This document shows, one piece after another, positions 46-37,058 of a DNA stretch of 37,448 nucleotides. The position numbers and the translations under genes are program-made. Location: IMG/VR virus record IMGVR_UViG_3300025009_000256, positions 1-37,448 of that record. One strand, 5' to 3'. The notes under the pieces are model-generated. The model was not told where the DNA came from. It ran no database searches and saw only the letters and a program-made list of their open reading frames with translations. Source of the stretch: a virus. Every line of letters starts with the position of its first letter. The stretch's first letter is position 1.

Positions 46-525
46 ATGCGCGGCAGAAAACCAAAGCCAACTGAACTCAAACGGCTGGCTGGAAATCCAG
101 GCAAGCGCGCGTTAAATCGCGCCGAACCACGACCGAGGATCGTATCACCTCGGCCGCCAGCGCATTTAAGTGACGATGAAAAAGCCAAGTGGAAAGCACT
201 AGTCAAGGTGCTGTATCCACTCGGCTTGGTGACCAATATAGACCTCGACCAACTGTCCGTGTATTGCGTGCTTTGGGGGCGATGGATAAAGGCGGAGAAG
301 ATGGTCCGGGAAAAAGGGGAGATCATCAAGACCGCGGCTGGGAACATTATTCAGAACCCATATTTATCTATTGCCAACCGTGCGCTTGAGCAACTCAATA
401 AATTGGGATCTGAATTTGGCATGACACCCAGCAGCCGTTCACGTGTGAAGACGGAACTACCAGATGCAGAACATGAGCTCGAGCAGATGCTGTTCGGGCA
501 GAGAGTGATGGTGACCCATGAGTGA
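46..525 (+). CDS. terS: Terminase small subunit, P27 family (copy 1)
   Basis: This 159-residue protein has the P27-family signature near its N-terminus: GRKPKP, then a leucine-rich segment, then GNPGKR (about residues 3-22). The C-terminal half has the family's EFGMTPSSRSR motif. TerS proteins bind the cos or pac site and load the large subunit for headful or unit-length packaging. It is the first gene after the putative cos site and just downstream of HNH on a circular map, the expected place. A second full-length paralogue of the same length lies at 3660-4139, which is unusual. The gene overlaps the following methyltransferase gene by 8 bp, suggesting translational coupling. Identification is firm at family level; which copy is the working packaging subunit is unknown. 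Confidence 0.93.
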   Translation: MRGRKPKPTELKRLAGNPGKRALNRAEPRPRIVSPRPPAHLSDDEKAKWKALVKVLYPLGLVTNIDLDQLSVYCVLWGRWIKAEKMVREKGEIIKTAAGNIIQNPYLSIANRALEQLNKLGSEFGMTPSSRSRVKTELPDAEHELEQMLFGQRVMVTHE

Positions 526-1858
526 AGAGTTGATTTATATCGCTGAAGGGCTTCGAAGCCTGGCGATTCCAATTGACGAACTGCACATAGACCCGGCCAA
601 CGCACGCGCCAACCATGCGCTGGACCGCATCGCGGCATCGCTGAAGGCCTATGGCCAGCGTAAGCCGATTATTGCAAACCGCCTACAGGGCGGGAAGATT
701 GAAGCCGGTAACGGGACATGGATGGCGGCCAAGAAGCTCGGCTGGACTCACATAGCCGTGGTTTTCGTGGAGGATGATGCGGCCACCGCGGCGGCCTATG
801 GTATTGCAGACAACCGGCTGAGCGAACTGAGCGCCTGGGATCTGGATGCGCTCGGTGCATTGATCCCCACTGTGGATGATTTGTTTACCGGCTTTACGGA
901 GGCCGAAATCCGTGACCTGCTTGGTGAGCAGGGCGGCGGCATGCTGGTGGACCCGGGCCCCCAGGATGACAAAGAAGACAAGCTCGCCGAGCTGCGCGAG
1001 AAATGGCACACCGACAATGGGCAAACCTGGAGCCTGGGCAAGCATATTCTTGTGTGTGCCGATACAACGCAATTGGATATCGATGCGCTGGGTTGGATGG
1101 GGATCGCTTCGCTGGCCGTGACATCCCCACCCTACTGGGTGGGCAAGGAGTATGAGCGCGAGAAAAGCGAAGCCGAGATTGACCAGTTCATCCAGCGCGC
1201 CGCGGCGGTGATGGCTCATGTTGTGCGCGTGGACGAGTCCCGCATTGTGATCAACACCGGCACAGGCTTCACCACCTCGTTCGAGAAGCGCAAGAAGCGC
1301 CAGGTACTGTTGCTGATCGACAAGTGGATGAATGCACTTTACCCGCTCGGCTGGAATCTACGCCATATCAGGCACTGGATCAAGGAGGGACAACTGGCGT
1401 CCATTTCGCCGAAGACCGATTTGATTGACCAGCATTCTGAATTCATCGGCACCTTCGAAGCCGATGATGGGCAAGAGATGGACTTTACCGACACGCTCAA
1501 CGAGCAGGATATCGGCCTGCTCGAGACGTACTACAACCGGGTGGGAAAGAACCGCGGCCAGGAACGAACCAAACAGAAATGGGCCCTGCGCTCGTACTGG
1601 GATGATATCAAAGGCACGGCCAGCGCCAATGGCCACGTGGCCGCCTTCCCGCTGGAGATTCCTGCCCGTCACATCCTGCTCTATACCCAGCCCGATGAGA
1701 TCGTGTTCGAGCCGTTCTGCGGATCGGGGACGACCATCATTGCCTGTGAAATCCTGAACCGTGTTTGCCGAGCCGTGGAGATTGACCCCGGCTATGTGGC
1801 CGCATCCCTGGAACGATGGCACTTGATGACTGGTGAAATGCCAGAGAGGCAACAATGA
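518..1858 (+). CDS. ParB-like nuclease domain fused to DNA methyltransferase (SPPY type)
   Basis: The 446-residue protein has two parts. Residues about 13-135 form a ParB/sulfiredoxin-like domain with DPANAR, KAYGQRKPI and GIADNR. The rest is an S-adenosylmethionine-dependent amino-methyltransferase. Catalytic motif IV is TSPPYW at 202-207 and the SAM-binding motif FEPFCGSGTT is at 397-406, so catalytic motif precedes SAM motif as in beta-class enzymes. TSPPY is most common in N4-cytosine and some N6-adenine enzymes, so the methylated base is not certain. ParB-MTase fusions between terminase genes are common in phages and may protect DNA from host restriction or mark it for packaging. The start overlaps the terS stop. 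A paralogue with a different catalytic motif lies at 2419-3663. Confidence 0.9.
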   Translation: MSEELIYIAEGLRSLAIPIDELHIDPANARANHALDRIAASLKAYGQRKPIIANRLQGGKIEAGNGTWMAAKKLGWTHIAVVFVEDDAATAAAYGIADNRLSELSAWDLDALGALIPTVDDLFTGFTEAEIRDLLGEQGGGMLVDPGPQDDKEDKLAELREKWHTDNGQTWSLGKHILVCADTTQLDIDALGWMGIASLAVTSPPYWVGKEYEREKSEAEIDQFIQRAAAVMAHVVRVDESRIVINTGTGFTTSFEKRKKRQVLLLIDKWMNALYPLGWNLRHIRHWIKEGQLASISPKTDLIDQHSEFIGTFEADDGQEMDFTDTLNEQDIGLLETYYNRVGKNRGQERTKQKWALRSYWDDIKGTASANGHVAAFPLEIPARHILLYTQPDEIVFEPFCGSGTTIIACEILNRVCRAVEIDPGYVAASLERWHLMTGEMPERQQ

Positions 1859-2118
1859 CAAATATAGTTACAGATCAAGTTGTTGAGTGCCATCACACAA
1901 TAACCCAGGGACGTGAACACGAAACAGGAAGTTGGTGTGTGGCCTGCGGCGTGAAGGTATTGGAAGTTGAAACGCGGGAATGCCAGGATTGCAGATGGTT
2001 CAAAGATTTGGGGCCTTTTAACCGCCCGGCGATTTGTAAAAAGCATTTGATGGGTGTGAATGCCGTTATGCACGTGACCTATTTTGTGCATGATGGCTCT
2101 TGCTTTGAAGGAAAATAA
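1855..2118 (+). CDS. Small cysteine-rich protein, probable zinc ribbon
   Basis: An 87-residue protein of unknown function. It has CVAC at about residues 28-31 and CQDC at about 42-45, then further Cys and His residues (CKKH), consistent with a zinc-binding fold. The start forms an ATGA overlap with the methyltransferase stop, so it is translated in the same operon. It lies between the two ParB-methyltransferase genes. It may be a DNA- or RNA-binding accessory protein, but nothing in the sequence proves that. Confidence 0.7.
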   Translation: MTNIVTDQVVECHHTITQGREHETGSWCVACGVKVLEVETRECQDCRWFKDLGPFNRPAICKKHLMGVNAVMHVTYFVHDGSCFEGK

Positions 2119-2119
2119 C

Positions 2120-2422
2120 ATGGGTCAACAACGAAAGAATTTCAGCGACTTGAACGAGAATGGCCAACTTGGGGATTGGTGCTTTCTCAAAAATGAAGAT
2201 CTGCATTTGCTCTTGCGCTATCCCCGCACCGATGGTGAACCGTATCCCGAAGGATGGGAGCACCGCGGCGAGATTGTTAGTTTACTCATCAGTCGTGAAC
2301 CGAACGTCCCCAAACATTGGCAATGGAATGGGAGCCTAGACGCTCCGACCCTAACTCCATCCATCAATGTCATCGGGAAATGGCATGGCTATTTGAGAGA
2401 TGGGAAGTTGATCACAGTATGA
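2120..2422 (+). CDS. DUF6527-like protein
   Basis: A 100-residue protein. The C-terminal pattern W-x-NGSLDAPTLTPSI followed by W-H-G-Y-L-R-DGKL resembles the DUF6527 family of small phage and bacterial proteins of unknown function. I chose ATG at 2120 because AAGGA sits 7 nt upstream at 2108-2112; an in-frame ATG at 2084 would overlap the previous gene and lacks a ribosome site. It ends in an ATGA overlap with the second ParB-methyltransferase. The family name is from memory of the motif and would need a profile search. Confidence 0.65.
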   Translation: MGQQRKNFSDLNENGQLGDWCFLKNEDLHLLLRYPRTDGEPYPEGWEHRGEIVSLLISREPNVPKHWQWNGSLDAPTLTPSINVIGKWHGYLRDGKLITV

Positions 2423-3663
2423 CCGATCTCCCCTACATTGCTGTATCTCTCCAGCCCCTGGCTGTGCCGATCGGCAGTCTGCATGAAGATCCTGCCAATG
2501 CGCGCGTGGGGCACGACGTGGCACGCATCTCTGCATCTCTCAAGGCTTATGGTCAACGGAAACCAATCGTCGCCAACCGCCTGCAGGATGGCAAGATCGA
2601 AGCGGGCAACGGAACATTCCGGGCTGCCAAGCAACTAGGCTGGACCCACATTGCTGTGGTCTTCGTGGATGACGACCCTGCCACTGCAGCCGCGTTTGGG
2701 ATTGCAGACAACCGGGTGGCAGAGTTCAGCCGATGGGACGAAGACGTGCTGCGCGAGATCTCTGCCAGCGTGGGAGACCTGTTTACCGGATTTGAGCCCG
2801 CCGAACTGGATGACCTGGTAGGGAAGACCGTTTCCACCGAAACGCCCACGGCGGAAGACCCGGGCGCGGAGCCGGAGCGTGCCGACGAGCTGCTGGTCAA
2901 GTGGCAGGTACAGATCGGGCAGGTGTGGCAATGTGGACCGCACCGCTTGATGTGCGGGGACTCCACCAAGCGGTTAGACGTGGCGCGGTTGATGGGCAAG
3001 GATCTCGCCCGGATGATCTGGAGCGACCCGCCCTGGAATGTGAATTACGGCGGTGGGGTGGATAGCGACAATGCCCAGGGGTACAAGGTCCGGGTCATGA
3101 ACAACGATAACCTGGGAAAGGAATTCCCATATTTCGTGGAGAAATTCACCGGGTTGATGTATGCATTCTGTGTACCCGGAGCGCCGATCTACGTGGCGAT
3201 GGGTGCCCAGGAGTGGCCGGTCATCGATCACTGGCTGCGCGTGAGCGGGTTCCACTGGTCGAGCACCATCGTGTGGGTCAAGGATCAACTGGTGCTATCC
3301 AGGAAGGATTACCACACGCAATATGAACCGCTGTGGTACGGATGGCGAGGCGATGCCGCCCGCCTGCAGGAAGTCGTGGACCGCAAACAATCCGATGTGT
3401 GGCTGATCGACCGACCGAAGAAGAGCGAGGAGCACCCGACCATGAAACCGCTGGAGTTGGTCGAGCGGTCGCTATTGAACTCCAGCAAGCCGGGCGATAT
3501 CGTGCTGGACTTGTTCGCAGGATCTGGCACGACGCTCCTCGCTTGCGAACGACAAGGGCGCATCTGCCGCACTATGGACAATGACCCAAAATACGCGGCG
3601 GTATGTCTGGAACGTTGGGCCGTGGCTACCGGGCAACAGCCAGAATTGGAAGGAATATCTTGA
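2419..3663 (+). CDS. ParB-like nuclease domain fused to DNA methyltransferase (DPPW type)
   Basis: 414 residues from the ATG at 2419, which overlaps the previous stop as ATGA. The N-terminal ParB-like half is almost the same as in the gene at 518-1858 (shared KAYGQRKPI, EAGNGT, LGWTHIAVVFV, GIADNR). The catalytic half differs. Motif IV is SDPPWN at about 202-207, typical of N6-adenine methyltransferases, and the SAM motif LFAGSGTT is at 365-372. MKPLELVERSLL precedes it, as in beta-class m6A enzymes. The two proteins thus share a targeting domain but carry different catalytic types. It is translationally coupled to the second terS gene through a TTGA overlap. Confidence 0.9.
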   Translation: MTDLPYIAVSLQPLAVPIGSLHEDPANARVGHDVARISASLKAYGQRKPIVANRLQDGKIEAGNGTFRAAKQLGWTHIAVVFVDDDPATAAAFGIADNRVAEFSRWDEDVLREISASVGDLFTGFEPAELDDLVGKTVSTETPTAEDPGAEPERADELLVKWQVQIGQVWQCGPHRLMCGDSTKRLDVARLMGKDLARMIWSDPPWNVNYGGGVDSDNAQGYKVRVMNNDNLGKEFPYFVEKFTGLMYAFCVPGAPIYVAMGAQEWPVIDHWLRVSGFHWSSTIVWVKDQLVLSRKDYHTQYEPLWYGWRGDAARLQEVVDRKQSDVWLIDRPKKSEEHPTMKPLELVERSLLNSSKPGDIVLDLFAGSGTTLLACERQGRICRTMDNDPKYAAVCLERWAVATGQQPELEGIS

Positions 3664-4139
3664 AAGGTCGCAGGCCAAAGCCATCCGTCGTCAGGAAATT
3701 AGAAGGCAATCCAGGCAAGCGGGCGATGAACAAACAAGAGCCCAAGGCTGCCGCAGGCGTTCCCAAGTGTCCCGAACATCTGAAAGGCGTTGCGCGCACT
3801 GAATGGAAGCGTATCATTTTGGAGCTGGCCGAGATGAAAGTGCTCTCGAGGGTGGACCGCGCCGAACTGACTCTATGTTGTTCCGCCTGGGGCATGTACG
3901 TGAAGGCATGCAAAAAGATCGAAAAAGAGGGGGAGGTCATCATCAGCGATGGTGGAGGTATGTACCAGAATCCGTGGGTGGCGATTCGCAACAGAAGTAT
4001 GGAGCAGATTCATAAGTTTTATACCGAATTTGGGATGACACCGTCCAGCCGGTCGCGCATCAAAGTGGAGACACCGACCGAAGAGGATGAGATGGCAAGT
4101 CTCCTTTTTGGATCGAAGGTAAAGGTCAACAAGCAGTGA
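3660..4139 (+). CDS. terS: Terminase small subunit, P27 family (copy 2)
   Basis: Using the TTG at 3660, with GGAAGGA six bases upstream (3648-3654), the protein is 159 residues, exactly the length of copy 1. An upstream ATG at 3603 would add 19 residues with no family similarity. It carries the P27 signature (GRRPKPSVVRKLEGNPGKR, about residues 3-21) and the EFGMTPSSRSR motif, so both copies are intact. It directly precedes the large subunit gene, the usual partner position. Copy 1 and copy 2 have diverged clearly in the middle, so they may recognise different sites or form mixed rings. Confidence 0.92.
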   Translation: MKGRRPKPSVVRKLEGNPGKRAMNKQEPKAAAGVPKCPEHLKGVARTEWKRIILELAEMKVLSRVDRAELTLCCSAWGMYVKACKKIEKEGEVIISDGGGMYQNPWVAIRNRSMEQIHKFYTEFGMTPSSRSRIKVETPTEEDEMASLLFGSKVKVNKQ

Positions 4140-4140
4140 G

Positions 4141-5868
4141 ATGGCAAAGCGCAAACGGAAGGAGGCTCTGCATCCTGCAGAACAATATGTCAGGGACGTC
4201 ATAGACGGGAGAATCGTCGCCTGCAAGTGGGTGCGCCTGGCATGCGAACGTCATGTTCACGATCTGGTACATGGTCACGAGCGCGGGTTGTATTTCGACG
4301 AGGTCGCGGCCCAGCGAGTCCTGCATTTTATAGGCTTGCTGCGGCATTCAAAGGGCAAGTGGGGACGTAATGGCGGAGAACGCATTATTCTCGAAGGCTG
4401 GCAACAATTTATCATCTGGAGCGTCTTTGGCTGGATGCGCGAGGATGGCCTGCGCAGGTATCGCACGCTGTACCAGGAGGTTGCGCGCAAAAATGGCAAG
4501 AGCACCATCGGTGCGGCCATCGGTCTGTATTTGGCATTTGCGGATGGTGAACCAGGTGCGGAAGTTTATAGCGCGGCGACCAAGCGCGACCAGGCGCGCA
4601 TCGTGCACAAGGAAGCGATCCGCATGGTCCGCAAGAACCAAGGCCTAAAGAAATTTATCAAGGTTTACAAGGACAATCTGAACCTTGAGCGCACAGCTAG
4701 TAAATACGAGCCGCTGGGGGCAGACTCGGATTCAACGGACGGATTGAACGTGCATGGGGTGGTAGCGGATGAACTGCATGCATGGAAAAGCCGGGAGATG
4801 TGGGATGTGCTCGAAACGGCCACGGGCTCACGCGAGCAGCCATTGATTGTGGCGATAACCACCGCAGGGATTGACCGTCGCAGTATCTGCTATGAAAAGC
4901 ATGAATATACCCGCAAGGTGCTGGAGGGGTGGAAGGATGGCACCTTCGAAGACGATACATGGTTCGGGATTATTTACACGCTCGATGAGGGGGATGACTG
5001 GCGCAATGAGAAAGTCTGGATCAAGGCAAATCCGAACCTGCACGTTTCCAAAAACCTAGACGACCTGCAGATGAAGGCAAAGCGGGCTGGCCAGATGGCG
5101 GCCGCGCTGAATAATTTCTTGCGCCGCGAACTGAACGTGTGGGTGCAGGGCGCCGTCAAGTGGATGAACATGGATGAATGGCGGAAATGCGCTGGCGACG
5201 TGCCTGCGCTGGAGATGGCAGGGCGGGTGAAGGGCATGACCAGTTATGGTGGTCTGGATCTGTCCGGCACATCTGATATCACGGCGTTCGTGCAGGTTTT
5301 TCCCGATGATGATGACACCATCCGCGTACTATGCAGGTTTTGGATCCCCGAAGACACACTGGAAATTTTGCCGCATTACCGTTCCCCCGATGATGCAAAA
5401 CACATTCGCCAGTGGGTGAAGGAAGGTTACATCGAGGCTACTCCTGGGAATGTGATTGACTATGATTTTATCTTTGCCCAGATCGAGAAGGATGCGGATG
5501 ACTTTGACATTGACCAGATCGCATTTGATCGCTGGGGCGCGGCGCGGGTAGTGCAAGTGCTGGAAAAGCAAGGCATGCAGATGGTGCAGTTCGGCCAGGG
5601 TTTTGCCAGCATGAACCCGCCGATGAAGGAACTCGAGCGGCTCGTGCTTTCAAAGAAAATTCATCACGGGAATAATCCTGTGTTGACCTGGATGGCAGAC
5701 AACCTGGTGGCGCGCGTAGACCCTGCTGGGAACATCAAGCCAGACAAGGAAAAGTCTCGCGAGAAGATCGACGGGATTGTGGCGCTGATCATGGCGCTTG
5801 ACCTGGCTCTGCGGCATCCTGAGACGAAGTCAGTTTATGAGAAGCGGGGGATTCGGACGGTTGGCTAG
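4141..5868 (+). CDS. terL: Terminase large subunit
   Basis: 575 residues, typical for the Terminase_1 (HK97/phiC31-like) family. The N-terminal packaging ATPase has a Walker A-type ARKNGKST at 115-122 and Walker B VVADELH at 207-213, followed by a coupling-type motif AITTAG near 238-243. The C-terminal nuclease has the acidic strand YGGLDLSGTSD at 369-379 and a late conserved Asp in the segment EKIDGIVALIMALDLAL. The enzyme cuts concatemeric DNA and pumps it into proheads. It starts one base after the terS copy 2 stop. All key motifs are present. Confidence 0.96.
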   Translation: MAKRKRKEALHPAEQYVRDVIDGRIVACKWVRLACERHVHDLVHGHERGLYFDEVAAQRVLHFIGLLRHSKGKWGRNGGERIILEGWQQFIIWSVFGWMREDGLRRYRTLYQEVARKNGKSTIGAAIGLYLAFADGEPGAEVYSAATKRDQARIVHKEAIRMVRKNQGLKKFIKVYKDNLNLERTASKYEPLGADSDSTDGLNVHGVVADELHAWKSREMWDVLETATGSREQPLIVAITTAGIDRRSICYEKHEYTRKVLEGWKDGTFEDDTWFGIIYTLDEGDDWRNEKVWIKANPNLHVSKNLDDLQMKAKRAGQMAAALNNFLRRELNVWVQGAVKWMNMDEWRKCAGDVPALEMAGRVKGMTSYGGLDLSGTSDITAFVQVFPDDDDTIRVLCRFWIPEDTLEILPHYRSPDDAKHIRQWVKEGYIEATPGNVIDYDFIFAQIEKDADDFDIDQIAFDRWGAARVVQVLEKQGMQMVQFGQGFASMNPPMKELERLVLSKKIHHGNNPVLTWMADNLVARVDPAGNIKPDKEKSREKIDGIVALIMALDLALRHPETKSVYEKRGIRTVG

Positions 5869-5928
5869 GGTGGAGTGGTTGCGGCAATTTCAGTTCACGA
5901 TACGAGAGGCATTCAGGTAGGAGAAGTG

Positions 5929-5956
5929 TTGACGGGTGCGAAGAAGATCGTATAAT
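5929..5956 (+). promoter_or_regulatory. Sigma70-type promoter for the orphan gene at 5979
   Basis: TTGACG at 5929-5934, a 16-nt spacer and a perfect TATAAT at 5951-5956. A strong ribosome site GAGGAGG follows at 5968-5974, 4 nt before ATG. This gives the downstream gene its own transcription inside the late region, as expected for a moron-type gene expressed from the prophage. Confidence 0.75.
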
Positions 5957-5978
5957 CCACTTATATTGAGGAGGCCCT

Positions 5979-6320
5979 ATGAAGGATAGATTTGTTGTAA
6001 CGCGTGTATTGGGAACCGTTGATCTTGACACTCCGGAATTACGAGAGCAGAACAAAAAGAAAATGAGGTTGGTCGCTGGTGGGGCATATCCATATGCCAT
6101 CAGAGAAATGATGAAACAGTGTGGGCATGGAATCCTTTCCAGCAGTAATGATCCTCAAGAGAAAGAGGATGCGAAATTACTAATATGTTATAGCTGGTGG
6201 TCGAGGGCGCTGGAAGGCGGGATACCCAAACGATATTTTGAGGCTTTTATGTTAGACCATCTAAAACATCTAGACGGTGACCCTGGTATAAATCTGGTGA
6301 AGTGGCAGAAATACGGTTAG
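5979..6320 (+). CDS. Orphan protein with its own promoter (possible moron)
   Basis: A 113-residue soluble protein with no domain I recognise. The gene has a near-consensus promoter and a very strong ribosome site immediately upstream, and is richer in A+T than the terminase genes on its left. The second leader RNA and its promoter begin right after it. Independent expression between structural modules and odd composition are typical of morons, which often alter the host or exclude other phages. That role is inference from context only. Confidence 0.75.
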   Translation: MKDRFVVTRVLGTVDLDTPELREQNKKKMRLVAGGAYPYAIREMMKQCGHGILSSSNDPQEKEDAKLLICYSWWSRALEGGIPKRYFEAFMLDHLKHLDGDPGINLVKWQKYG

Positions 6321-6346
6321 GACAACCTGTTCACTCTTGATTTTTA

Positions 6347-6355
6347 TGCTATAAT
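6347..6355 (+). promoter_or_regulatory. Extended -10 promoter of late operon 1
   Basis: TGC followed by TATAAT (6350-6355) is a perfect extended -10 element. No good -35 is seen at the normal distance; TTGATT at about 6337 is only 7 nt away. The expected start point is near 6361-6363, so the transcript would begin about a dozen bases before the conserved hairpin at 6375. Confidence 0.65.
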
Positions 6356-6361
6356 GCTTTC

Positions 6362-6446
6362 AACAATTGAAGCACTCCTGGTGTAGACCGGGAGAATTTG
6401 TCGGAAATGAGCGCCCGACTCTCTATGTGAGAGTCGGGCGCTTTTT
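6362..6446 (+). ncRNA. Late leader RNA, copy 1: hairpin, antiterminator segment and terminator
   Basis: Hairpin P1 is 6375-6381 paired with 6388-6394 around the loop UGUAGA. GUCGG at 6400-6404 can pair with CCGAC at 6415-6419, which is part of the 5' arm of the terminator below. The two pairings exclude each other, as in attenuators and riboswitches. The same order, the same loop and compensatory stem changes recur at 36527-36595. It lies between a promoter and the peptidase-portal-head-tail operon. I do not recognise a known RNA family. Confidence 0.7.
6410..6446 (+). terminator. Intrinsic terminator of leader RNA copy 1
   Basis: A perfect 13-bp GC-rich stem (6411-6423 with 6429-6441), loop TATGT, then TTTTT at 6442-6446. 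It sits before the peptidase gene, so transcripts must read through it for the lysis, head and tail genes to be made. Confidence 0.88.
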
Positions 6447-6467
6447 GTTTTGCTTTTGGAGGTAGCG

Positions 6468-7274
6468 TTGAGGAAATGGACTGTGGCGCAGGCGCCATTG
6501 CGGACAGACCCAGGCGGCCGAGTGAAATTGCTCGACATGCCGCGCCATCGTCTGTGCGATCCGACAGGCGTGACGCAGGAAGTCCTTTATCGAGGCATAC
6601 CGACGACATGGGCTGAAGTTGTTTATCACGACAGCGCGGGCAGGCACTATGGGTGGGTTTATGCTGCACTGCTCGAAGACTACGACGAGACCGATCATCC
6701 CCCGATTGTTTCCATCCCCAACCAAACGACCGATCCCCAGGATGCGGCGCAGTACATGATCTGGCGCGACCAGAAGCAATATAACATGTGCGGCGAACTG
6801 TGCGTGTCGTTCATCGCGGTTGCCGATCTGGGCGCGCTTCTCAACGATTGGCAAGCGAAGGCGATCAATATATTCCAGCGCGTGTTTGGGAGCGGTGGGC
6901 GGGCGCGCGGTACCGGTCTGGGGGAACTCGACAGCATGCTCTCGATTTTCGGCTATCCAACTCCATCCATCCGTCTCGATATAGGCCTGCGCGATCCCAT
7001 CCTGGAGCGCCCGCTGGTCACCCCTGCGCGCATCCAGAGCATGCTGACGTTGCATCAGGCGATCGTGGGCGTCAAGATTGACGGCGCCACGGGCAATCTG
7101 CGCGGGAGCGGGATCGCGCATTGGGTTGTGTTGGAAAATGTGTACCCCCACGGGATCAACCGCGGCATGGCGGAAATTTACAACCCCTACCACAATCAAA
7201 TGCAGGGCTATTCCTGGGATGAGTTGGTGAGCTCAATGGGCAGCCCGTATGGTCTATGGGTGGCGAGGAGATAG
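6468..7274 (+). CDS. C39/papain-like cysteine peptidase, putative endolysin
   Basis: 268 residues from TTG at 6468, chosen because GGAGG lies 5 nt upstream (6458-6462). The N-terminal third has an SH3-like pattern ending in HYGWVYAALLEDY. The rest looks like a C39/papain-type peptidase: nucleophile Cys in YNMCGELC, His in GIAHWVVLENV and an Asn-containing strand in EIYNPYHNQMQGYSW. Such enzymes cut peptides, including peptidoglycan cross-bridges. Two tiny membrane proteins follow, so a lysis role is likely, although this position between terL and portal is unusual. No other lysin is visible in the window. A virion-associated or bacteriocin-processing role cannot be ruled out. Confidence 0.7.
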   Translation: MRKWTVAQAPLRTDPGGRVKLLDMPRHRLCDPTGVTQEVLYRGIPTTWAEVVYHDSAGRHYGWVYAALLEDYDETDHPPIVSIPNQTTDPQDAAQYMIWRDQKQYNMCGELCVSFIAVADLGALLNDWQAKAINIFQRVFGSGGRARGTGLGELDSMLSIFGYPTPSIRLDIGLRDPILERPLVTPARIQSMLTLHQAIVGVKIDGATGNLRGSGIAHWVVLENVYPHGINRGMAEIYNPYHNQMQGYSWDELVSSMGSPYGLWVARR

Positions 7275-7514
7275 ATGGAGAATTCCTCCTATATCAGTTT
7301 GCTTGTTCAGGTCCCCTTGGTCGGGATGTTCATCTGGTTCACACTCCGCCAAAGCAAGGATTTTTTATCGGCAATGGAAAAGCGCGACGAGCAGTGGCGT
7401 ATTTTTCTCAAGGATCACACCGAGGCCACCAATATGGCGATCGGTCGGATTGCTGAGGAAGTCAAGAACCTGGGGCGTGAGGTGTCGGAAATGCGCGGGA
7501 GGAACGGAAAATGA
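7275..7514 (+). CDS. Small membrane protein with coiled coil, holin/BhlA-like
   Basis: 79 residues: one N-terminal membrane segment (about 7-23, SLLVQVPLVGMFIWFTL) followed by a charged helix likely to form a coiled coil. The layout resembles BhlA-type holins and spanin-like partners. It starts at the base after the peptidase stop and overlaps the next membrane protein gene by 4 bp. With the peptidase it forms a compact cassette. The holin function is inferred from topology and position. Confidence 0.65.
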   Translation: MENSSYISLLVQVPLVGMFIWFTLRQSKDFLSAMEKRDEQWRIFLKDHTEATNMAIGRIAEEVKNLGREVSEMRGRNGK

Positions 7515-7681
7515 AATACCGTTTCGATGGAAACGATGGAATGTATTACCTGGGACTGCTCCTGCTGGGTCTCGGCCTGGCGTTTAGCGTATCCTGGCAA
7601 ACCGCGTCGATCGTGGTCGGAGCGATCCTGGCCGCGGTGAGCGCGATCAATTCGTATGTGCTGGTGTGGCTGAGTAAATAA
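7511..7681 (+). CDS. Tiny membrane protein, putative holin
   Basis: A 56-residue protein. It starts at ATG 7511 inside the previous gene (ATGA overlap) and its TAA shares one base with the portal ATG at 7681. After a short polar N-terminus it has two hydrophobic segments (about 12-27 and 31-54), a class II holin-like topology. Tight packing on both sides and the strong hydrophobic bias support a real gene. Holin, antiholin or pinholin function is inference. Confidence 0.65.
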   Translation: MKYRFDGNDGMYYLGLLLLGLGLAFSVSWQTASIVVGAILAAVSAINSYVLVWLSK

Positions 7682-9270
7682 TGCTGCTCAAACCGTCGAT
7701 GATCATCTCGCGTGCAACCGCACTTCCCCCTTCCAGATCTGTGGATCGGAATGCAGGATCCTCTGCGCGCGCTTTGCGCGAAACGAGTCACAGCGACGAG
7801 ATCATCACGCCTGAAATTTCTCTGACCGTGCCAGGCGTTCTGGCAGCCTTCACAATCTTGTGTGAGGATATCTCCAGCCTGCCGCTGGTGCTCTATCAGC
7901 GCGGGCCGGGCGAGGAGCGCCAGCGCGCTTACGGAAACAGTTATTACAGCCTGATGCATGATGCCCCCAACTCAGAGCATACCAGCATGACCTTCCGCGA
8001 AATCGAGATGGGTCATCTGCTGGCCTGGGGGAACTTCTACGCCCAGATCATCACGGACCGCCAAGGCAATGTAGCAGAGCTCTGGCCATTGCGCCCCGAT
8101 CGAATGACGGTGCAGCGGGTGGATGGAGAGAAGGTTTATCGGTATCTGACCAGCGAAGGCAAACCGGTCACATTCCTGCGGGATGAGATATTGCATGTTC
8201 CCGCGTTCGGCTTCGATGGGCTGGTCGGTTATTCGCGGATCGCCCTGGCTCGCAACACAATCGGACTGGCGATGGCCACCGAGCGTTTTGGTTCGAAATT
8301 TTTCGCAAACGATGCCCGGCCAGGGATCGCGCTCAAACATCCGACGACTCTCTCCGACACCGCATACCAACGGCTGGTGGCATCCTGGGACGATAAGCAT
8401 AAAGGGGCGGATAACGCCCACAAAACTGCAATCCTTGAAGAGGGGTTGGACATTGCCGAGATTGGTTTCCCGCCTGAAGACGCCCAGTTCATTGAGACCC
8501 AGCGATGGACGGTAGCGCAGATCGCCAGAGTCTTCCGCGTCCCGCCACACATGATCGGCGACACCGATCGATCGACGAGCTGGGGCACTGGCATCGATAG
8601 CCAGGAGCAGGGCTACGTCAACCATACGTTGCGCCCGTGGACGGTCCGCATTGAGCAATCCCACAATCAACAGTTATTGCTGCCTGATGAGCGAAAAATA
8701 TATTTCTGGGAGCACCTGTTCGATGCTCTCGTGCGCGGCGATCTGACAACCCGATATGCCACCTATACGCAGGCCATCACCAATGGAATCATGTCGCCCA
8801 ACGAAGTGCGGCGCAAAGAAAATATGAGCCCGTACGAAGGCGGTGATGTCTATGTTTTGCCGCTAAACACCGGCCCGGCGGATCAAACCGATGATGAAGA
8901 TGCTCCCGAGGAAAAGACGCCTGACGAGGATATGGAAGACATGCAGGCACGAACCCGGCCATTGTTTCTGGATGCGGCCCAGCGCGTGCTCAGGCGCGAG
9001 ACCAGCGAACTGCGTGACGCCGGTCAGCGTTGGCTGGATAAAGGCAAGGCGGAGAAATACCAGGCTTGGGTCGAGCAGTTCTACAAACAAAGTCTCCCGT
9101 CTTTTGCATTATCTGTGTTCCAGCCGTTGATAGATGCGAATTTAATTTCACTAGTAAAAGTGCAGACGTGGCTTGCCATATTCTGCGAGGTGCGCGGCGA
9201 CCAGGCGCGTACAGACGCCAATATCTCAGACTATCCCCCCGCTGATTTTGTGCGGGGATTATTGGAGTAA
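7681..9270 (+). CDS. Portal protein, HK97-type
   Basis: 529 residues. The N-terminal half has HK97-portal features: VPGVLAAFTILCEDISSLPLVLY, WPLRPDRMTV, DEILHVPAFGFDGLVGYS, then FANDARPGIALKHP and VAQIARVFRVPPHMIGD. The C-terminal part (from about residue 400) is acidic and then helical. The dodecameric portal forms the DNA entry vertex and binds the terminase motor. It lies downstream of the putative lysis cassette and just before the maturation protease, matching the usual portal-protease-coat order. Confidence 0.95.
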   Translation: MLLKPSMIISRATALPPSRSVDRNAGSSARALRETSHSDEIITPEISLTVPGVLAAFTILCEDISSLPLVLYQRGPGEERQRAYGNSYYSLMHDAPNSEHTSMTFREIEMGHLLAWGNFYAQIITDRQGNVAELWPLRPDRMTVQRVDGEKVYRYLTSEGKPVTFLRDEILHVPAFGFDGLVGYSRIALARNTIGLAMATERFGSKFFANDARPGIALKHPTTLSDTAYQRLVASWDDKHKGADNAHKTAILEEGLDIAEIGFPPEDAQFIETQRWTVAQIARVFRVPPHMIGDTDRSTSWGTGIDSQEQGYVNHTLRPWTVRIEQSHNQQLLLPDERKIYFWEHLFDALVRGDLTTRYATYTQAITNGIMSPNEVRRKENMSPYEGGDVYVLPLNTGPADQTDDEDAPEEKTPDEDMEDMQARTRPLFLDAAQRVLRRETSELRDAGQRWLDKGKAEKYQAWVEQFYKQSLPSFALSVFQPLIDANLISLVKVQTWLAIFCEVRGDQARTDANISDYPPADFVRGLLE

Positions 9271-9272
9271 CC

Positions 9273-10493
9273 ATGATGAAACATGCCCCCATTCGATGCT
9301 TCGAAGGCAAGGCCCAGCCTGGTGATCCGTTCTGGACAATCACTGCGTCCAACGATGGCACGGAAGCCACCCTGCAGTTCTACGGTGTGATCTCGGAATT
9401 TTCCTGGCTCGGGGATGAGATATCGCCAAAGAAATTCCAGGATGACCTGTTGCGCGTTGGCCAGGGAAAACCGATCACCCTGAGGATCGATTCGCCGGGC
9501 GGTGATCCCATCGCAGCCTCGGCCATTAGTGCGATCATCTCATCCTATCCCGGCAGGGTGACGGCCCAGATTGACGGCCAGGCGTCCAGCGCAGCCGTGC
9601 TGGTGGCGTTGGCGGCCAGCCGCGTGCGGATCATGGATACAGCCTACATGATGGTGCACGATCCAGCGGTCAATATCTTACTGGCGCTGTTGGATATTGA
9701 GACCTTGAGCCACCTGTACACATCCCTGCAATCCATCAAGGCGGGCATGGTGGCTGCCTACTCGGCCCGGACAGGGTTGAGCGAAAAGCAACTCAACCAG
9801 ATGCTCACCGATGAAACATGGATGAGTGCGCAAGAGGCCGTGGATTTCGGCTTTGCGGATGAGATCGTCAAGGGCGGGCAGAAGCGATCTGCAAAGAAGT
9901 TTGAAAATGTGCTGCGGAATTTCGAGCACGTGCCCCCCGCCCTGTTGAATATGGCGGAAGAACCCGAGGAAGCCAGCGAAGGGGATGAACCCCCGGTAGC
10001 TGAACCTATTGAGCCAGACGAGGCAGGTCAGGCCGTGCCAGGCGGCACGGAAGACGGTCCGGCGGAGGATCCGCTGGCCGCGCCGAAGCTCGCTCTCCAA
10101 TCCAAGCGTGTAGTGTCAAAACAAGGAGTAACCATGTACATGCGTGAATTGATTCAAAAACGCTCCACTCTGGTCGCTGAAGCCGACGCCCTGGTGAAAC
10201 AGGCCGACGGCGAAGGCCGCGATTTCACCACTGAAGAGCGGGCCCGCTTTGTCGCCATCCTCGGCGAAGGTGAGACGCCCGGTGAGATCGGCGCCCTGGA
10301 CGCCCAGATCGAGCAGATCGAAGGCGAGCGTGAGAGACTGCGCGCCGCTGCGGAGAAGAAATTCTCAGACCGTCAGACCAACAAACCCGAACCGTCAGCG
10401 CCTGGAAACACCATGAAGCGCGGCGAGTTCGTTGCGCTTTCCCCTGCCGACCAGGCCGCCTTTGTGCGCAACGGCGGCAAGATCACAGATTAG
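9273..10493 (+). CDS. Head maturation protease, ClpP type, fused to scaffold-like C-terminus
   Basis: 406 residues. Residues about 30-215 form a ClpP/S14 serine protease: IDSPGGDP at 72-79, catalytic Ser in GQASSAA (about 106) and His in MMVHDP (129). An acidic E/P-rich linker (about 225-270) leads to a helical C-terminal part (from about 288) rich in E, R and A, like an HK97 delta or scaffold domain. The protease trims scaffold and coat proteins during prohead maturation. A separate ribosome site and in-frame ATG at 10134 suggest the C-terminal part is also made alone. Confidence 0.92.
   Translation: MMKHAPIRCFEGKAQPGDPFWTITASNDGTEATLQFYGVISEFSWLGDEISPKKFQDDLLRVGQGKPITLRIDSPGGDPIAASAISAIISSYPGRVTAQIDGQASSAAVLVALAASRVRIMDTAYMMVHDPAVNILLALLDIETLSHLYTSLQSIKAGMVAAYSARTGLSEKQLNQMLTDETWMSAQEAVDFGFADEIVKGGQKRSAKKFENVLRNFEHVPPALLNMAEEPEEASEGDEPPVAEPIEPDEAGQAVPGGTEDGPAEDPLAAPKLALQSKRVVSKQGVTMYMRELIQKRSTLVAEADALVKQADGEGRDFTTEERARFVAILGEGETPGEIGALDAQIEQIEGERERLRAAAEKKFSDRQTNKPEPSAPGNTMKRGEFVALSPADQAAFVRNGGKITD
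10134..10493 (+). CDS. Nested in-frame scaffold protein
   Basis: AAGGAG at 10123-10128 lies 5 nt before ATG 10134, in frame with the protease gene. Translation from here gives a 119-residue protein that begins MYMRELIQKRS, a typical start for an HK97-like delta or scaffold domain, and is highly helical and charged. This mirrors the lambda C/Nu3 arrangement, where scaffold is the C-terminal part of the protease gene made from an internal start. The perfect internal ribosome site in an otherwise coding region is the main evidence. Confidence 0.72.
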   Translation: MYMRELIQKRSTLVAEADALVKQADGEGRDFTTEERARFVAILGEGETPGEIGALDAQIEQIEGERERLRAAAEKKFSDRQTNKPEPSAPGNTMKRGEFVALSPADQAAFVRNGGKITD

Positions 10494-10505
10494 CGAGGAA
10501 ATCAC

Positions 10506-11657
10506 ATGTCCAACACCCTTACCAATCTCATTCCCGACATTTATGCTGCGCTGGACGTAGTCTCGCGCGAGCTGGTCGGGTTCATCCCCGCCGTGGCACG
10601 CGATCCCAGTGCTGACCGGGTCGCGCTGAATCAGACCCTGCGCGTCGAGCAAACTCCGGCCAATGCGGCAGGAGGCGATATCACCCCCGCGATGGCGCTC
10701 CCTTCGGCGGCCGACCAGACCATCGGAAACAAGAGCCTGACCATCACCAAGAACCGCTTCTTCCCGTTCTCGTGGACGGGCGAAGAGCAATATGCGGTCA
10801 ATAAAGGCCCTGGATATCTGACCATCAAGCAGGATCAGATCGCCCAGGCCGTCCGCGCCGCGATCAACGAGATGGAGACCGATATTGCCACCGCCGCGTA
10901 CAAGGGCGCATCCCGCGCCTATGGAACGGCCGGAACCACTCCATTTGCCTCCACCCTCGCGGATCCCGCCAATGGAAAGAAAATCCTTGACGACAACGGC
11001 GCCCCCTCGTCAGACCGCCACCTGGTGATCAACACCACCGCAGGTGCGGCCATGCGCACGCTTGCCCAGCTCACCAAGGCCAACGAAGCCGCCGATGCAT
11101 CCCTGCTGCGGCAGGGCGTCCTTTTGGATATCCACGGCTTTGCCATCCGGGAATCGGCGAAGGTGCAGGCCGTCACCAAAGGCACCGGATCGGGCTATCT
11201 GGTGGATCTGGTGGCAGGCTATGCAGTCGGCGACACCACGGTTCATGTGGACACCGGGACCGGCACGATCCTGGCAGGGGACTGTGTCACCTTCGCGGGC
11301 GACACCAATAAGTACGTGGTGGCGACCGGCTTCGCGGGCGACGGCGATGGAGACATCGTTCTGGCCGCCCCTGGCCTGCGCCAAACCCTGGCGAATGATG
11401 TGGCCATGACCATCGGCAACAGTTTCACCGCCAACGTGGGCTTCACGCGCAACGCCATCCTGCTGGCCACCCGCCTGCCCGAATTGCCGGAGGAAGGTGA
11501 CATGGCTCTCGACCGCATCGTGATCACCGATCCATTGACGGGCATTTCGCTCGAATTCGCCGTTTATCCCGGCTACCGCATGAACGTCTACCACGTCTCG
11601 CTGGCGTGGGGCGTGACGGTGATCAAACCGGAACATGCGTTCGTGTTGCTCGGCTAG
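10506..11657 (+). CDS. Major capsid protein, P22 coat-like family
   Basis: 383 residues. The N-terminus (NTLTNLIPDIYAALDVVSRELVGFIPAV) and the segment DQTIGNKSLTITKNRFFPFSWTGEE match the P22 coat-like (gene 5-type) capsid proteins found in many siphophages. A beta-rich insertion (about residues 235-300, with repeated GD and TG turns) is common in this group. Coat proteins of this fold assemble the icosahedral shell around the scaffold encoded just upstream. It follows the protease/scaffold gene by 12 bp with a GAGGAA ribosome site. A stable hairpin follows the next small gene. Confidence 0.92.
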   Translation: MSNTLTNLIPDIYAALDVVSRELVGFIPAVARDPSADRVALNQTLRVEQTPANAAGGDITPAMALPSAADQTIGNKSLTITKNRFFPFSWTGEEQYAVNKGPGYLTIKQDQIAQAVRAAINEMETDIATAAYKGASRAYGTAGTTPFASTLADPANGKKILDDNGAPSSDRHLVINTTAGAAMRTLAQLTKANEAADASLLRQGVLLDIHGFAIRESAKVQAVTKGTGSGYLVDLVAGYAVGDTTVHVDTGTGTILAGDCVTFAGDTNKYVVATGFAGDGDGDIVLAAPGLRQTLANDVAMTIGNSFTANVGFTRNAILLATRLPELPEEGDMALDRIVITDPLTGISLEFAVYPGYRMNVYHVSLAWGVTVIKPEHAFVLLG

Positions 11658-22060: not shown

Positions 22061-23113
22061 TTATGCGCGCTGTTTGAGTAATTCCAGCAATTCGTCCAGC
22101 TTGTCTTCGAGACTTCCGCCTGTTTTGGAATTCCCCAAACGGGCAATGATATTGCGCACATCATCGCCGACCAGATTGCCATAGATACCGTCGGTGATGG
22201 TCACGCTGGAGTGCATTACATTCTGGCTGATGGCTTTCAGTTCAGCCATGCTGCCAGCGCGTTTCAGGGCATATACCACATGCCCGTGGCGCAATTTGTG
22301 AGGGGATAGATAGGTTACACCTGCGCGAGCACAGATCAAGCGGACATCCTCCTCGATCACACTGTTTCTGCCTTCGAAGGCTATTGTGGTGGGTTTCAGA
22401 GACATGCCGTCGTTGGTGAGCGTCGCGTACCAGAGAGCCGAGTCGGGTAGGGCGCGCACGCGGCGATCCCAGGTATTCACGACGGCCAGCAGTTCGGGGA
22501 TCTCGAGCAGGTAGGTAATGGCCGCCTTGCGGTTTTTGGTACGAACCCCATACTCGGGCAGCTGTCTTACCTGGCGCTCCCCGATATCCACGCAGGAGAT
22601 TGGCAGGGATGCCAGCGCATCGGCGCGCATGCCGGAGAGGAACAACATGCACACAGCCACCTTGCCACGCTCTTCCCGCAGTGTTTCTGTGGAAACGGCC
22701 GCGATGCGCCGCACCTCCTCCAAACTGTAAAATTGATGGGGGGACAGGCGGAAGTCCCGCCGAGCCTGGCGCGGGGGCTGCAGGAAATCGATCCAGCCAT
22801 CCGAGAGCGATTTGTAGCGGAGCGGCCATTCCACACGGGCAAACCTGAAGAACTGACGGGCGTTAGCTAGGCAGCGGATCACGGAAGCGGGGGCCAGCGG
22901 CTTCTCCCGGCCATCCGCTCGGGCCGTCAGCAGGTAGACCGGGAACGATGGGTCAAGGGAACGGGCCTGTGAGAAGGGGGTCTCGTCCGACCACTCCAGC
23001 AGGTGACGGAGATGCGACCGGGCGCGCTTGGTAGTCTCTGGATCATTTTGGCGGACGCGCTCGATGTGATGTAGATAGGCGCGGATATCCAGCCAGTTTT
23101 GACGATGGATCAC
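22061..23113 (-). CDS. int: Tyrosine integrase
   Basis: 350 residues from the GTG at 23113, which has CGGAGG seven bases upstream. The longer reading frame to 23260 overlaps the upstream gene and adds no family sequence. Catalytic residues of tyrosine recombinases are present: Arg163 (GMRADAL), His272-x-x-Arg275 (HKLRH), His301 (VMHSS) and nucleophile Tyr311 (DGIYGNL). An N-terminal SAM-like core-binding domain (about 5-115) is followed by the catalytic domain. It is coupled to the upstream HTH gene by a GTGA overlap. The likely attP lies 0.5 kb upstream. Confidence 0.93.
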   Translation of the reverse strand: MIHRQNWLDIRAYLHHIERVRQNDPETTKRARSHLRHLLEWSDETPFSQARSLDPSFPVYLLTARADGREKPLAPASVIRCLANARQFFRFARVEWPLRYKSLSDGWIDFLQPPRQARRDFRLSPHQFYSLEEVRRIAAVSTETLREERGKVAVCMLFLSGMRADALASLPISCVDIGERQVRQLPEYGVRTKNRKAAITYLLEIPELLAVVNTWDRRVRALPDSALWYATLTNDGMSLKPTTIAFEGRNSVIEEDVRLICARAGVTYLSPHKLRHGHVVYALKRAGSMAELKAISQNVMHSSVTITDGIYGNLVGDDVRNIIARLGNSKTGGSLEDKLDELLELLKQRA

Positions 23114-23520
23114 TGTGCGCCTCCGTTCCGTCGTGCTCGGGCACGATTGACCGTAGTGCCGCATGCAGGGCAGGGCGCTTGCAGGAGCTCCAGATATCGG
23201 TTGACGGTCCGCACGCGAGGCGTAATCAACGGGACCGCCTGGTTGCAACGCATGCACCATGCATGGCCAGCGGGCAGGCCTGCGCGCTGGCTCCGCTTTT
23301 TAGATATCGTCTCTCGTGCCCAGGCAGCAAAGGCCGGGCCGTGGATCCAGACGTCGCCTTGTGCATCACGGGTATGCGGCGCGCCGGCGGGGAGATAGGA
23401 TCGGTAGACCGTATCCTGTGCAACGCCGATCTCCTCGGCAATCTCGGACGGTCTATAGAGCATATCCAGCAAACGGCCGAGTTTGACGATGTGGCAATGT
23501 TTCAGTTTTGGCTGTCTCAT
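23110..23520 (-). CDS. HTH plus zinc-ribbon protein coupled to integrase (excisionase candidate)
   Basis: 136 residues from ATG 23520 with CTGGAG upstream. Residues about 22-46 (YRPSEIAEEIGVAQDTVYRSYLP) resemble a MerR/excisionase-type helix-turn-helix. The C-terminus has CMRC (89-92) and CPAC (117-120), a zinc ribbon. It overlaps the integrase start by 4 bp and is transcribed first. Together these suggest a recombination directionality factor or an integrase regulator; a plain transcription regulator is also possible. Confidence 0.7.
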   Translation of the reverse strand: MRQPKLKHCHIVKLGRLLDMLYRPSEIAEEIGVAQDTVYRSYLPAGAPHTRDAQGDVWIHGPAFAAWARETISKKRSQRAGLPAGHAWCMRCNQAVPLITPRVRTVNRYLELLQAPCPACGTTVNRARARRNGGAQ

Positions 23521-26544: not shown

Positions 26545-26979
26545 ATGGACTATCAAACAAATATCCCAGCAATACTGATCGATGAAGGCGAGTTGAGCGA
26601 CCTGATCGCACGCCTGGGCACAACGTTTGGCGTGACACCACGGATCGAGAAGCAGTTCGTTATCAGCACAGATGATGGCGAGTTCTCAGAGATCCTGGAC
26701 TCGATTGCCCTCGGCTTGGAGAGCAGGAAGCCCGTGCGGAAGCCAGAGGACAAGGTCCGCAAGCCGCGCCAAACAAAAGTAAAGAGCAAAGCAATGGGGC
26801 GTGCATCGTATCGAATAGTTCAAAGCGGGGAGATCGTCTCGACGCGCAAGTTACACGAGACGATGAAGACCAACGAGGCCGTATTGCATCAGGTGCTCGA
26901 AAATTTCAAGGGTGAACGCTTCGTCATCCTGCAGGATGGTCACAACGGCATGATGTTGGCGAAGGAGCCGCAGGAATGA
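26545..26979 (+). CDS. Hypothetical early protein upstream of parB
   Basis: 144 residues from ATG 26545 (GGAAGGA upstream). An N-terminal alpha-beta part is joined by a highly basic linker (about 70-95, rich in K, R and P) to a second part (ASYRIVQSGEIVSTRKLHETMKTNEAVLHQVLENFKGERF) that looks like a small winged-helix or HTH. ATGA overlap with the ParB gene suggests they work together. No known family recognised. Confidence 0.65.
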   Translation: MDYQTNIPAILIDEGELSDLIARLGTTFGVTPRIEKQFVISTDDGEFSEILDSIALGLESRKPVRKPEDKVRKPRQTKVKSKAMGRASYRIVQSGEIVSTRKLHETMKTNEAVLHQVLENFKGERFVILQDGHNGMMLAKEPQE

Positions 26980-28667
26980 GCGAGCTGATCCCACTCGAAC
27001 TGATCAAGGACAACCCCTACCAGGGCCGCGACGAGTACGGCGATATCGAGACGCTGGCGAGAAGCATCGCCACGGACGATATGCAGGAGTATCCCCGGGC
27101 ACGCAAGAGCGGCAAGGGTTACGAGCTCAAATTCGGGCATCGGCGCGTGGAGGCTTTCCGGTGGCTATGGGAGAATTGGCAGGCGCAAGGTCTGGCCAAT
27201 CGTTACGAGGGCTACACTGTCATCCCGCTCGACATCGAGGATTTGACTGATGAGCAAATGTTCCGCGGTGCGACTATCGAGAATGAACAGCGGAAGAACC
27301 TGACGCCCATCGAACAGGCGCGGATGATGATCGTCTACCGTGACCAGTTTAAGAAGACGAGCGCCGAGGTGGGCGAATTATTCGGGATGCAGGGAGAGAC
27401 GGTGCGCGGGTTGATCCGCTTGCTGTCCCTGCCTGAACCCGTGCAGGCACAAATTGAAAACGGGGAGATCACCCAGGGGCAGGCGCGCAAGCTGCTGACC
27501 ATCGCCAGTGTGGATGAAAAGGAAGTGGTGCTGGCGGCGAAGCGTCTTCAGCATGGGGAAAAAGTGGAAGACGTGATGGAACAGGCCATGCGCTCTGCCG
27601 AGAACGCGGTGACGATGTGGCAAGGCTGGAATGATGGCTCACCGCGTGGCGGGCAGGGACTCTGGCCGTTGGCGATGACGCCCGATAAATTCCCGATGAA
27701 GCTCCTTCCCAAACTGACCGCGGCGGATGTGTCCAAGGCGCTCGAACTCGAATTTACTGCCGACCTGCGGCAGAAGATCGAAGCGTATATGCGCTACCTG
27801 CTCGACGAGATGCAGTTGGACGTAACCGCTGAGATCGAGCGTCATCCCGAGGATGCCGACCTGATCGAGCGCATTGCACACTTGGCGAAACCGCCTGCCT
27901 GTACCACCTGCTCATTCCATGCCGTCGCTGACCGCGCTCACTACTGCGGATTCAAGGCCTGTCATGTGCGCAAGAAAAAAGCGTGGATCCAGCACGAGAT
28001 AGAGAAAGTCTCGAAGACGCTCGGCATCGCCGTCTACAACGCGAAGGTGGATGGATCAGCGACCCTGCCCCTGGAAGAAAGCACATATTCGGATGCGCAC
28101 AAGCTCCACGCCAAGCTGGTGGCCGACAAAGATGCCGACCTGCGCGTGGCGCAACACAGGAACGAATACAGCCAGCATAAATGGACGGAGAGCCATTGGT
28201 GCCGACTGGTGCTGGTGGGGAGGAGAGTGACCGAAGCCAAATCGTCCCAAGCCGAGAACGAGGAGAAGGCGCGTATCCAACGTGAGTTGACGCAACAGCG
28301 CAAGAACGCATCCCACAAGTTTCTCGATGCGTACGCATTACCGATTTTGGCTGTCGCGTTCGAGCCGATTGAAAAGGTGGCCATCCCTGTTTTGTGCAGT
28401 TACTTTAGCTGTCGTGCGCCCAAGGCGGATGCGGCGGCCAAGAAATCCTTCTATGCCAGTTTGCGGGTCACGATGGCCAGCAATGCCGTCCGTTATCTGT
28501 TCGGCTGGCTGGACTATGAGAAGGGACCGACCAACGTCGCGAAGAAGTTGGTGGGGCTGGCGACGACGTGGGGGGTGAAGCTGCCGTCTGATTTCCTGAC
28601 GGTGGCCAAGGGCTTCGAGCCTATCGTTGCTGTGGAAACGGAAGGGAAGAAGGGGATGAAGAAATGA
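26976..28667 (+). CDS. parB: ParB/RepB/Spo0J-like protein with C-terminal Cys cluster
   Basis: 563 residues. The ParB N-terminal domain is clear: NPYQGR near 13-18, FGHRRVEAF at 53-61, then ENEQRKNLTPIEQARM near 102-117 and an HTH (about 128-154). The middle has a Cys/His cluster (CTTCSF, CGFKAC; about 309-330), likely a zinc site. The C-terminus is unassigned. No parA is visible, so it may not act in classical partition; phages often use such proteins as nucleases or regulators. Confidence 0.85.
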   Translation: MSELIPLELIKDNPYQGRDEYGDIETLARSIATDDMQEYPRARKSGKGYELKFGHRRVEAFRWLWENWQAQGLANRYEGYTVIPLDIEDLTDEQMFRGATIENEQRKNLTPIEQARMMIVYRDQFKKTSAEVGELFGMQGETVRGLIRLLSLPEPVQAQIENGEITQGQARKLLTIASVDEKEVVLAAKRLQHGEKVEDVMEQAMRSAENAVTMWQGWNDGSPRGGQGLWPLAMTPDKFPMKLLPKLTAADVSKALELEFTADLRQKIEAYMRYLLDEMQLDVTAEIERHPEDADLIERIAHLAKPPACTTCSFHAVADRAHYCGFKACHVRKKKAWIQHEIEKVSKTLGIAVYNAKVDGSATLPLEESTYSDAHKLHAKLVADKDADLRVAQHRNEYSQHKWTESHWCRLVLVGRRVTEAKSSQAENEEKARIQRELTQQRKNASHKFLDAYALPILAVAFEPIEKVAIPVLCSYFSCRAPKADAAAKKSFYASLRVTMASNAVRYLFGWLDYEKGPTNVAKKLVGLATTWGVKLPSDFLTVAKGFEPIVAVETEGKKGMKK

Positions 28668-36626: not shown

Positions 36627-37058
36627 GTGAAACTGAATCTCGAAAGTATCTTGAAGGAACTTGCGTGGCCGCTCGGCTTAATCGCAGTCTTCTCGACTGT
36701 GCTGGCGCTGTTTGGCGTGGACTTGAACATGGTGCTCGCCGTCGCTGCCACAATGGTTGGTACACAGGCACTGATCAGTTTGCTCGTGGATGTGCTGAAG
36801 TGGTCAGGTGTGGTGGATGACGGGACCGCAGGTAAGTGGTCGGCAGCGTTCAACCTGCTCGGCCTGGCTGGCATCGCTGTTGGCCTGTACCTCAACCCTG
36901 ACTTTGACTTCAGCGCACTGGATGCACAGTTCCAGATATTGGCACAGTTTGCAGTGCTGGTCTTTGGTTATATTGTTCAGATTGCTGGCTCGAAACGTGT
37001 GCACCAGTTGACGGTTCGCGGGCTGGGTGTGACTGCCTTATCGGCGAGCAGTGCCTAA
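36627..37058 (+). CDS. Four-pass membrane protein, holin-like
   Basis: 143 residues from GTG 36627 (AAAGGAG five bases upstream). Hydrophobic segments at about 11-28, 33-55, 72-88 and 103-123. Size and topology fit phage holins or other small membrane proteins. It is the first gene behind leader copy 2 and overlaps HNH by 8 bp. There are other holin candidates at 7275-7681. Confidence 0.6.
   Translation: MKLNLESILKELAWPLGLIAVFSTVLALFGVDLNMVLAVAATMVGTQALISLLVDVLKWSGVVDDGTAGKWSAAFNLLGLAGIAVGLYLNPDFDFSALDAQFQILAQFAVLVFGYIVQIAGSKRVHQLTVRGLGVTALSASSA

Follow-up and report, generated by a model that had tools for sequence, protein, structure and literature searches.

Phages with a small terminase subunit (TerS) of the P27 family (Terminase_4) combine terS with the large-subunit gene terL, an HNH endonuclease gene and a cohesive-end site (cos), and in the Variovorax phage VarioGold a 10-nt 3' overhang has been mapped (PMC9658991). 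The presence of two small terminases in a single phage has been called unheard of, the candidate in that case being a misannotation (PMC9409062), and a literature search for two-TerS phages returned only this misannotation and unrelated uses. Phage fusions of a ParB-like domain to an N6/N4 methyltransferase, grouped in phrog_498, often lie near terminase genes. Here we describe an IMG/VR record (IMGVR_UViG_3300025009_000256; 37,448 bases, analyzed over its full length and hereafter the window), read as a near-complete virion genome, in which two terS genes flank two ParB-methyltransferases (MT1 and MT2) in the order terS1-MT1-two small open reading frames (ORFs)-MT2-terS2-terL, all on the + strand and with short overlaps. 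The window resembles other P27-family HNH/cos phages in its arrangement of terS, terL, HNH and cos, its Pfam and PHROG matches and its expected 10-nt 3' overhang, and is unlike them in that each genome has two small subunits; a second matching place was seen in none of the 591 phage records matched by terS1 or the 575 matched by terS2. Compared with the phrog_498 fusions, which have the same domain order, the locus is distinguished by two catalytic types in tandem, with matched ParB halves, 3' of a small-terminase paralogue.

Results

Two maintained small terminase genes

An earlier note on this DNA, made from the sequence alone, had described the terS-MT ... MT-terS-terL arrangement and two intact small-subunit genes of 159 residues, and both descriptions hold. 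The genes terS1 (46-525, the methylase-linked copy) and terS2 (3660-4139, adjoining terL) match Pfam Terminase_4 (1.5e-27, 96.3 bits and 3.4e-28, 98.4 bits, respectively; cut-off 24.7) and phrog_83 (1.3e-49 and 2.7e-49), and their products are 41% identical over 159 amino acids (E 1e-51). The length of terS2 is counted from a TTG start; an ATG at 3603 would give 178 amino acids (3603-4139), and the choice between the two is uncertain. Only terS2 is positioned directly upstream of terL (4141-5868; TerL_nuclease 5.4e-53, TerL_ATPase 4.3e-36), with the methylases separating terS1 from it. In the closest pairs of relatives, ratios of nonsynonymous to synonymous substitution (dN/dS) are 0.04-0.13 for terS1 and 0.05-0.10 for terS2, low values that indicate that both copies are maintained under purifying selection and, with the intact lengths, rule out decay of either, as the note had supposed. 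It is terS1 that is better conserved (median identity 78%, as opposed to 62% for the faster-changing terS2). AlphaFold models are weak for terS1 (mean pLDDT 60) and moderate for terS2 (72), with an identical order of main helices, and a PDB search with the terS1 profile found no relative.

The best terS tree places terS1 beside the single-terS phage L238 and not beside terS2, while the approximately unbiased test does not reject descent of both copies from one ancestor (p-AU 0.19). In L238 the TerL ORF (8492-11272, 926 aa) matches the window TerL only from residue 140 on, and an intein or fused insertion is likely.

Paired ParB-methyltransferases

MT1 (518-1858) consists of a ParB-like domain at about 551-931 and an N6/N4 methyltransferase at about 1103-1855, and MT2 (2419-3663) of a matching ParB-like domain fused to a second N6/N4 methyltransferase. 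The two proteins are similar overall (E 3e-86), with ParB halves 69% and catalytic halves 27% identical, such that the description of the ParB halves as nearly identical was an overstatement; the best stretch of shared DNA is 76% identical over 195 nt. Both match Pfam N6_N4_Mtase (2.3e-25 for MT1, 7.7e-23 for MT2) and phrog_498 (1.8e-107 for MT2). Their ParB halves match Pfam ParB_N weakly (20.4 and 17.9 bits, under the cut-off of 26.3) and PHROG ParB families strongly (1e-26 to 1e-32), with weak phmmer matches to Noc structures. The catalytic motif and the FxGxG motif of N6/N4 methyltransferases are present in both and invariant in the orthologues of each. Motif IV differs as the note had reported, TSPPYW in MT1 and SDPPWN in MT2, the former of which we take to be typical of N4-cytosine enzymes and the latter closer to N6-adenine enzymes. 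Matches in the PDB (PvuII for MT1; CcrMI, RsrI and DpnA, and N4-cytosine enzymes too, for MT2) lend loose support to this typing, and MT1 is probably of the N4-cytosine type and MT2 of the N6-adenine type. The overlap between the reading frames of terS1 and MT1 suggests translational coupling.

Accessory genes, which vary between members, occupy the slot that separates MT1 from MT2. In the window these are an 87-aa cysteine-containing ORF (1855-2118, +), for which Pfam and PHROG searches gave no family match, and a DUF6527 ORF (2084-2422, +; PF20137, 1.2e-8). Two relatives have stand-alone TerL-nuclease-like proteins in the slot, L046 at 3670-4251 (Pfam TerL_nuclease 1.9e-12) and L156 at 6736-7536 (6e-05, just under the cut-off), in which the third acidic motif is apparently altered.

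Conservation and loss in the clade of the window

Relatives of terS1 in IMG/VR and GTDB genomes amounted to 26 distinct sequences, which are not fully independent lineages. The order HNH-cos-terS1-(MT1)-MT2-terS2-terL is kept in all 26 loci of this clade (group A), including Chloroflexota prophages; MT2 and a second terS lie downstream of every one, MT1 is present in 20, and terS1 without MT2 was not found among them. Three loci are in genome bins, two from Chloroflexota (L065, Anaerolineales; L066) and one binned as Bacteroidetes (L067). A scan of 396 host-class genomes with the terS1 profile (E 1e-20) recovered terS-type genes in five, with two copies only in the known carrier G001.

In the terL tree, four single-terS members fall within or at the base of the dual-terS clade. 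In three lineages (L068, L166 and L161/L224) the terS1-MT1-MT2 block has been lost through three different deletions, each of which begins within terS1 and ends within MT2. Scars remain at either end of the block, the first terS1 codons being joined to the 3' part of MT2, followed by terS2 and terL. L169 has a single terS2-type gene and no evident scar. The possibility that one terS is dispensable, which the note had listed against its own reading, is borne out in part: three lineages have lost terS1 along with the methylases, and the terS next to terL is retained in every case of loss. Loss of MT1 is a separate process, in which the remaining methylase begins like MT1 and continues as MT2, with a crossover point that differs in L066, L145, L225 and L223/L008; the L066 enzyme is nearly identical over its first ~50 residues to MT1 of the close relative L228. 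These crossovers indicate that the ParB halves act as recombination sites.

The same layout with an unrelated terminase

Scanning with alignments of MT1 and of MT2 recovered the MT1-MT2 pair in phages whose terminase is of another kind (group B; TerL of phrog_38, Terminase_6N/6C). Their layout is X1-MT1-MT2-...-X2-terL, in which X1 (~200 residues) overlaps the start of MT1 and its paralogue X2 precedes terL. Neither Pfam nor PHROG gives X a name, comparison of profiles shows no similarity to P27 TerS (hhalign probability 0.1), and a PDB search with the X profile returned no relative. Because single-copy X genes directly precede or overlap terL in Anaerolineae genomes, X is taken to be a small terminase subunit on the basis of position, and the hosts of group B are assigned from the same occurrence of the X family. 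The asymmetry seen in group A is repeated, with an average identity of 68% for X1, 44% for X2 and 41% between the two. The last ~40 residues of X1 are absent in L311 and L328, and versions lacking MT1 occur in L360, L380 and L394. When 154 distinct methylase loci were compared, only those of groups A and B proved to have a paralogue of the gene that immediately precedes the methylase; a few members were missed owing to overlap limits of the filter. Upstream of X1, several loci (L305, L307-L309, L312 and L379-L381) have a conserved promoter-like leader, TTGACAAA..TAGAACG..CGTTCTAAAAT, containing an inverted repeat that resembles a LexA-type operator; a GC-rich hairpin comes next.

The separate phylogenies of the ParB and methyltransferase halves that the note had called for confirm a conflict between the two, with ParB halves grouping by phage group and catalytic halves by enzyme type. 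Within a genome the ParB halves are 65-70% (group A) or 62-81% (group B) identical and between the groups 29%, whereas the catalytic halves are orthologous across groups (64 and 63% identity). Group A forms one clade in the ParB tree (SH-aLRT 97), where a clade of the MT1s of both groups is rejected (p-AU 5.7e-8); in the catalytic tree a group A clade is rejected (p-AU 2.4e-32) and the MT1s of both groups together are not. The trees are quick and have some long outgroup branches, and the identity values give the same pattern directly. In each group, either the two ParB halves were exchanged jointly or one was copied onto the other.

The idea of one targeting domain paired with two kinds of base modification is thereby strongly supported and made general, as two unrelated groups each have their own ParB version. 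The proposed tandem duplication of the module fares poorly, since the catalytic halves are not duplicates, and a recent duplication is ruled out by their tree and by the divergence of the terS copies and ParB halves. The terS copies are better seen as old paralogues, in a module order unlike a simple tandem repeat.

Genome ends and other features

The window begins with GTTTTGCGCGCG, precisely at the cut made in cos, and its start lies exactly 15 nt 5' of CCGCGAAAT, a spacing shared by 14 loci of P27-type phages, including the clade members L006 and L050. The left virion end (1-45, +) is cos-proximal, with the CCGCGAAATT core at position 16, a core common to single-terS phages too. At the right, an HNH endonuclease gene (37051-37422, +; Pfam HNH 3.8e-9, phrog_144) is followed by the right virion end (37423-37448, +), placing cos between HNH and terS1. 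The ends are fixed, as L006, L050 and further P27-type contigs start at exactly the same point; the window ends align with cos sites internal to relatives, and in those relatives HNH adjoins terS1 across cos. Relatives reading through cos have about ten extra bases, CGGCGGGGCA-like, between window end and window start, and the last window base (T) is unlike theirs. The ~10 missing bases fit what a lost 3' overhang would leave, its length being taken from the missing bases, and a 10-nt overhang such as that of VarioGold would account for them.

An integrase gene (22061-23260, minus strand) suggests that the phage is temperate. Elsewhere the window encodes a separate ParB-like protein (26976-28667, 563 aa), an FtsK/SpoIIIE-like protein (32006-33328) and, between terL and portal, a 274-aa ORF (6450-7274) with no PHROG match and, by eye only, a hint of a papain-like or C39-like peptidase.

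Methylases at the cos/terS position are not unique to group A, as in another P27 phage (L164, ~5000-7800) a cytosine-5-type methylase and a ParB-like gene lie, by eye, between cos and terS-terL. A prophage fragment outside groups A and B with two P27 terS-like genes (L246, 6100-8354) was considered as a third dual-terS case and not counted: in its MT-terS...terS order the methylase precedes the first terS, and terL was not recognized close by.

Discussion

The reading that we prefer, at a little short of an even chance, is that terS1-MT1-MT2 forms one functional module and that terS2-terL is the packaging terminase proper. Its basis is the conserved order, co-inheritance and co-deletion of the genes, the matched ParB halves, purifying selection and the reappearance of this arrangement beside an unrelated terminase. 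The methylases probably work at the packaging site or are guided there, and we infer that TerS1 may recruit them directly. Under such a mechanism, TerS1 would have retained the DNA recognition of a small terminase while working with two ParB-methyltransferases, an N4-cytosine-type and an N6-adenine-type enzyme acting at or near cos; the shared ParB half would dock both enzymes on a common partner or site, with TerS1 or TerS1-bound cos DNA the most likely candidate. Such methylation would tag the packaging site of the phage itself or set the timing of cutting, presumably just before packaging, because the module starts the presumed late operon, next to cos. Since a terS paralogue is tied to the methylase pair, and the ParB halves are matched per genome and change with the terminase, cooperation of TerS1 and the ParB halves at the packaging site would be the simplest account. 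Put more specifically, and only tentatively, the small-terminase paralogue could be the specificity subunit of a two-enzyme (N4-cytosine and N6-adenine) complex that marks the packaging site, assembled at least twice with unrelated terminases, each time with ParB domains that match the local system.

Several observations weigh against a dedicated methylase module. ParB-methylases occur near the terminase in many other phages with a single terS (e.g., L392 and L185), hence methylases in general do not need a second TerS, and in group B MT2 and X2 are separated by 2-5 kb. The C-terminal tail is conserved in TerS1 as in TerS2, and as TerL binding is expected at the TerS C-terminus from other phages (PMC9611059), TerS1 may still touch TerL.

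That possible contact matters for the main rival, which we consider unlikely: MT1 and MT2 would methylate cos, with TerS1 packaging or nicking methylated and TerS2 unmethylated cos, or the reverse, and the timing of packaging would follow. The retained tail is in its favor, matched ParB halves would fit a common cos-binding role, and it too predicts that terS1 becomes useless, and hence is lost, without methylases. It requires, however, that TerS1 functions with TerL, yet terS1 never adjoins terL and X1 is C-terminally shortened in two group B phages, and single-terS phages have the same cos core. MT1-type enzymes just 5' of terminase-like genes in L313, L317 and L327, identified from position and visible motifs only, fit either steering by TerS1 or reading of marks. 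The note's other suggestion, that two small subunits serve two DNA ends, found no support.

Phage-encoded methylases are common and often have an anti-restriction role, so that MT1 and MT2 could be ordinary enzymes of this kind, with terS1 a second packaging subunit (for a mixed ring or a spare specificity) placed beside them by chance operon order. Purifying selection on both TerS would be consistent with this, but it leaves the matched ParB halves unexplained, and the recurrence of so unusual a layout with an unrelated terminase and the loss of terS1 only together with methylases make it quite improbable. Least credible is that TerS1 and the ParB-methylases recognize or mimic the packaging sites of satellites or superinfecting phages and mark or block them, for although accessory genes in the MT1/MT2 slot differ between members, TerL-nuclease-like proteins included, and a methylase-fused ParB domain is reported to nick DNA in Bacillus cereus (PMC5512222), conservation is higher in TerS1 than in TerS2, and an arms race would be expected to produce the reverse.

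The second small terminase described here, first in viruses of Chloroflexota bacteria, is conserved and under selection, and it recurs in two packaging systems that are unrelated to each other, invariably linked to the same methylase pair, which suggests a little-known link between the choice of DNA for packaging and its chemical marking. The layout makes the coupling of DNA modification to genome packaging directly testable, offers a possible role for the common and unexplained ParB-methylase fusions beside terminase genes, and supplies a natural domain-swap set for learning what the ParB half recognizes.

Among known systems, phage P1, in which adenine methylation controls pac cutting, is a possible precedent for packaging-site methylation; P1 has just one methylase activity and lacks an additional small subunit. 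The HsdS protein of Type I restriction-modification offers an analogy only, as a DNA-binding subunit that would steer a methylase; in the window, recognition would fall to a small terminase. The TerS encoded by SaPI satellites is an extra small subunit that alters what is packaged, whereas in the present case the phage itself encodes both copies and the additional one is linked to methylases.

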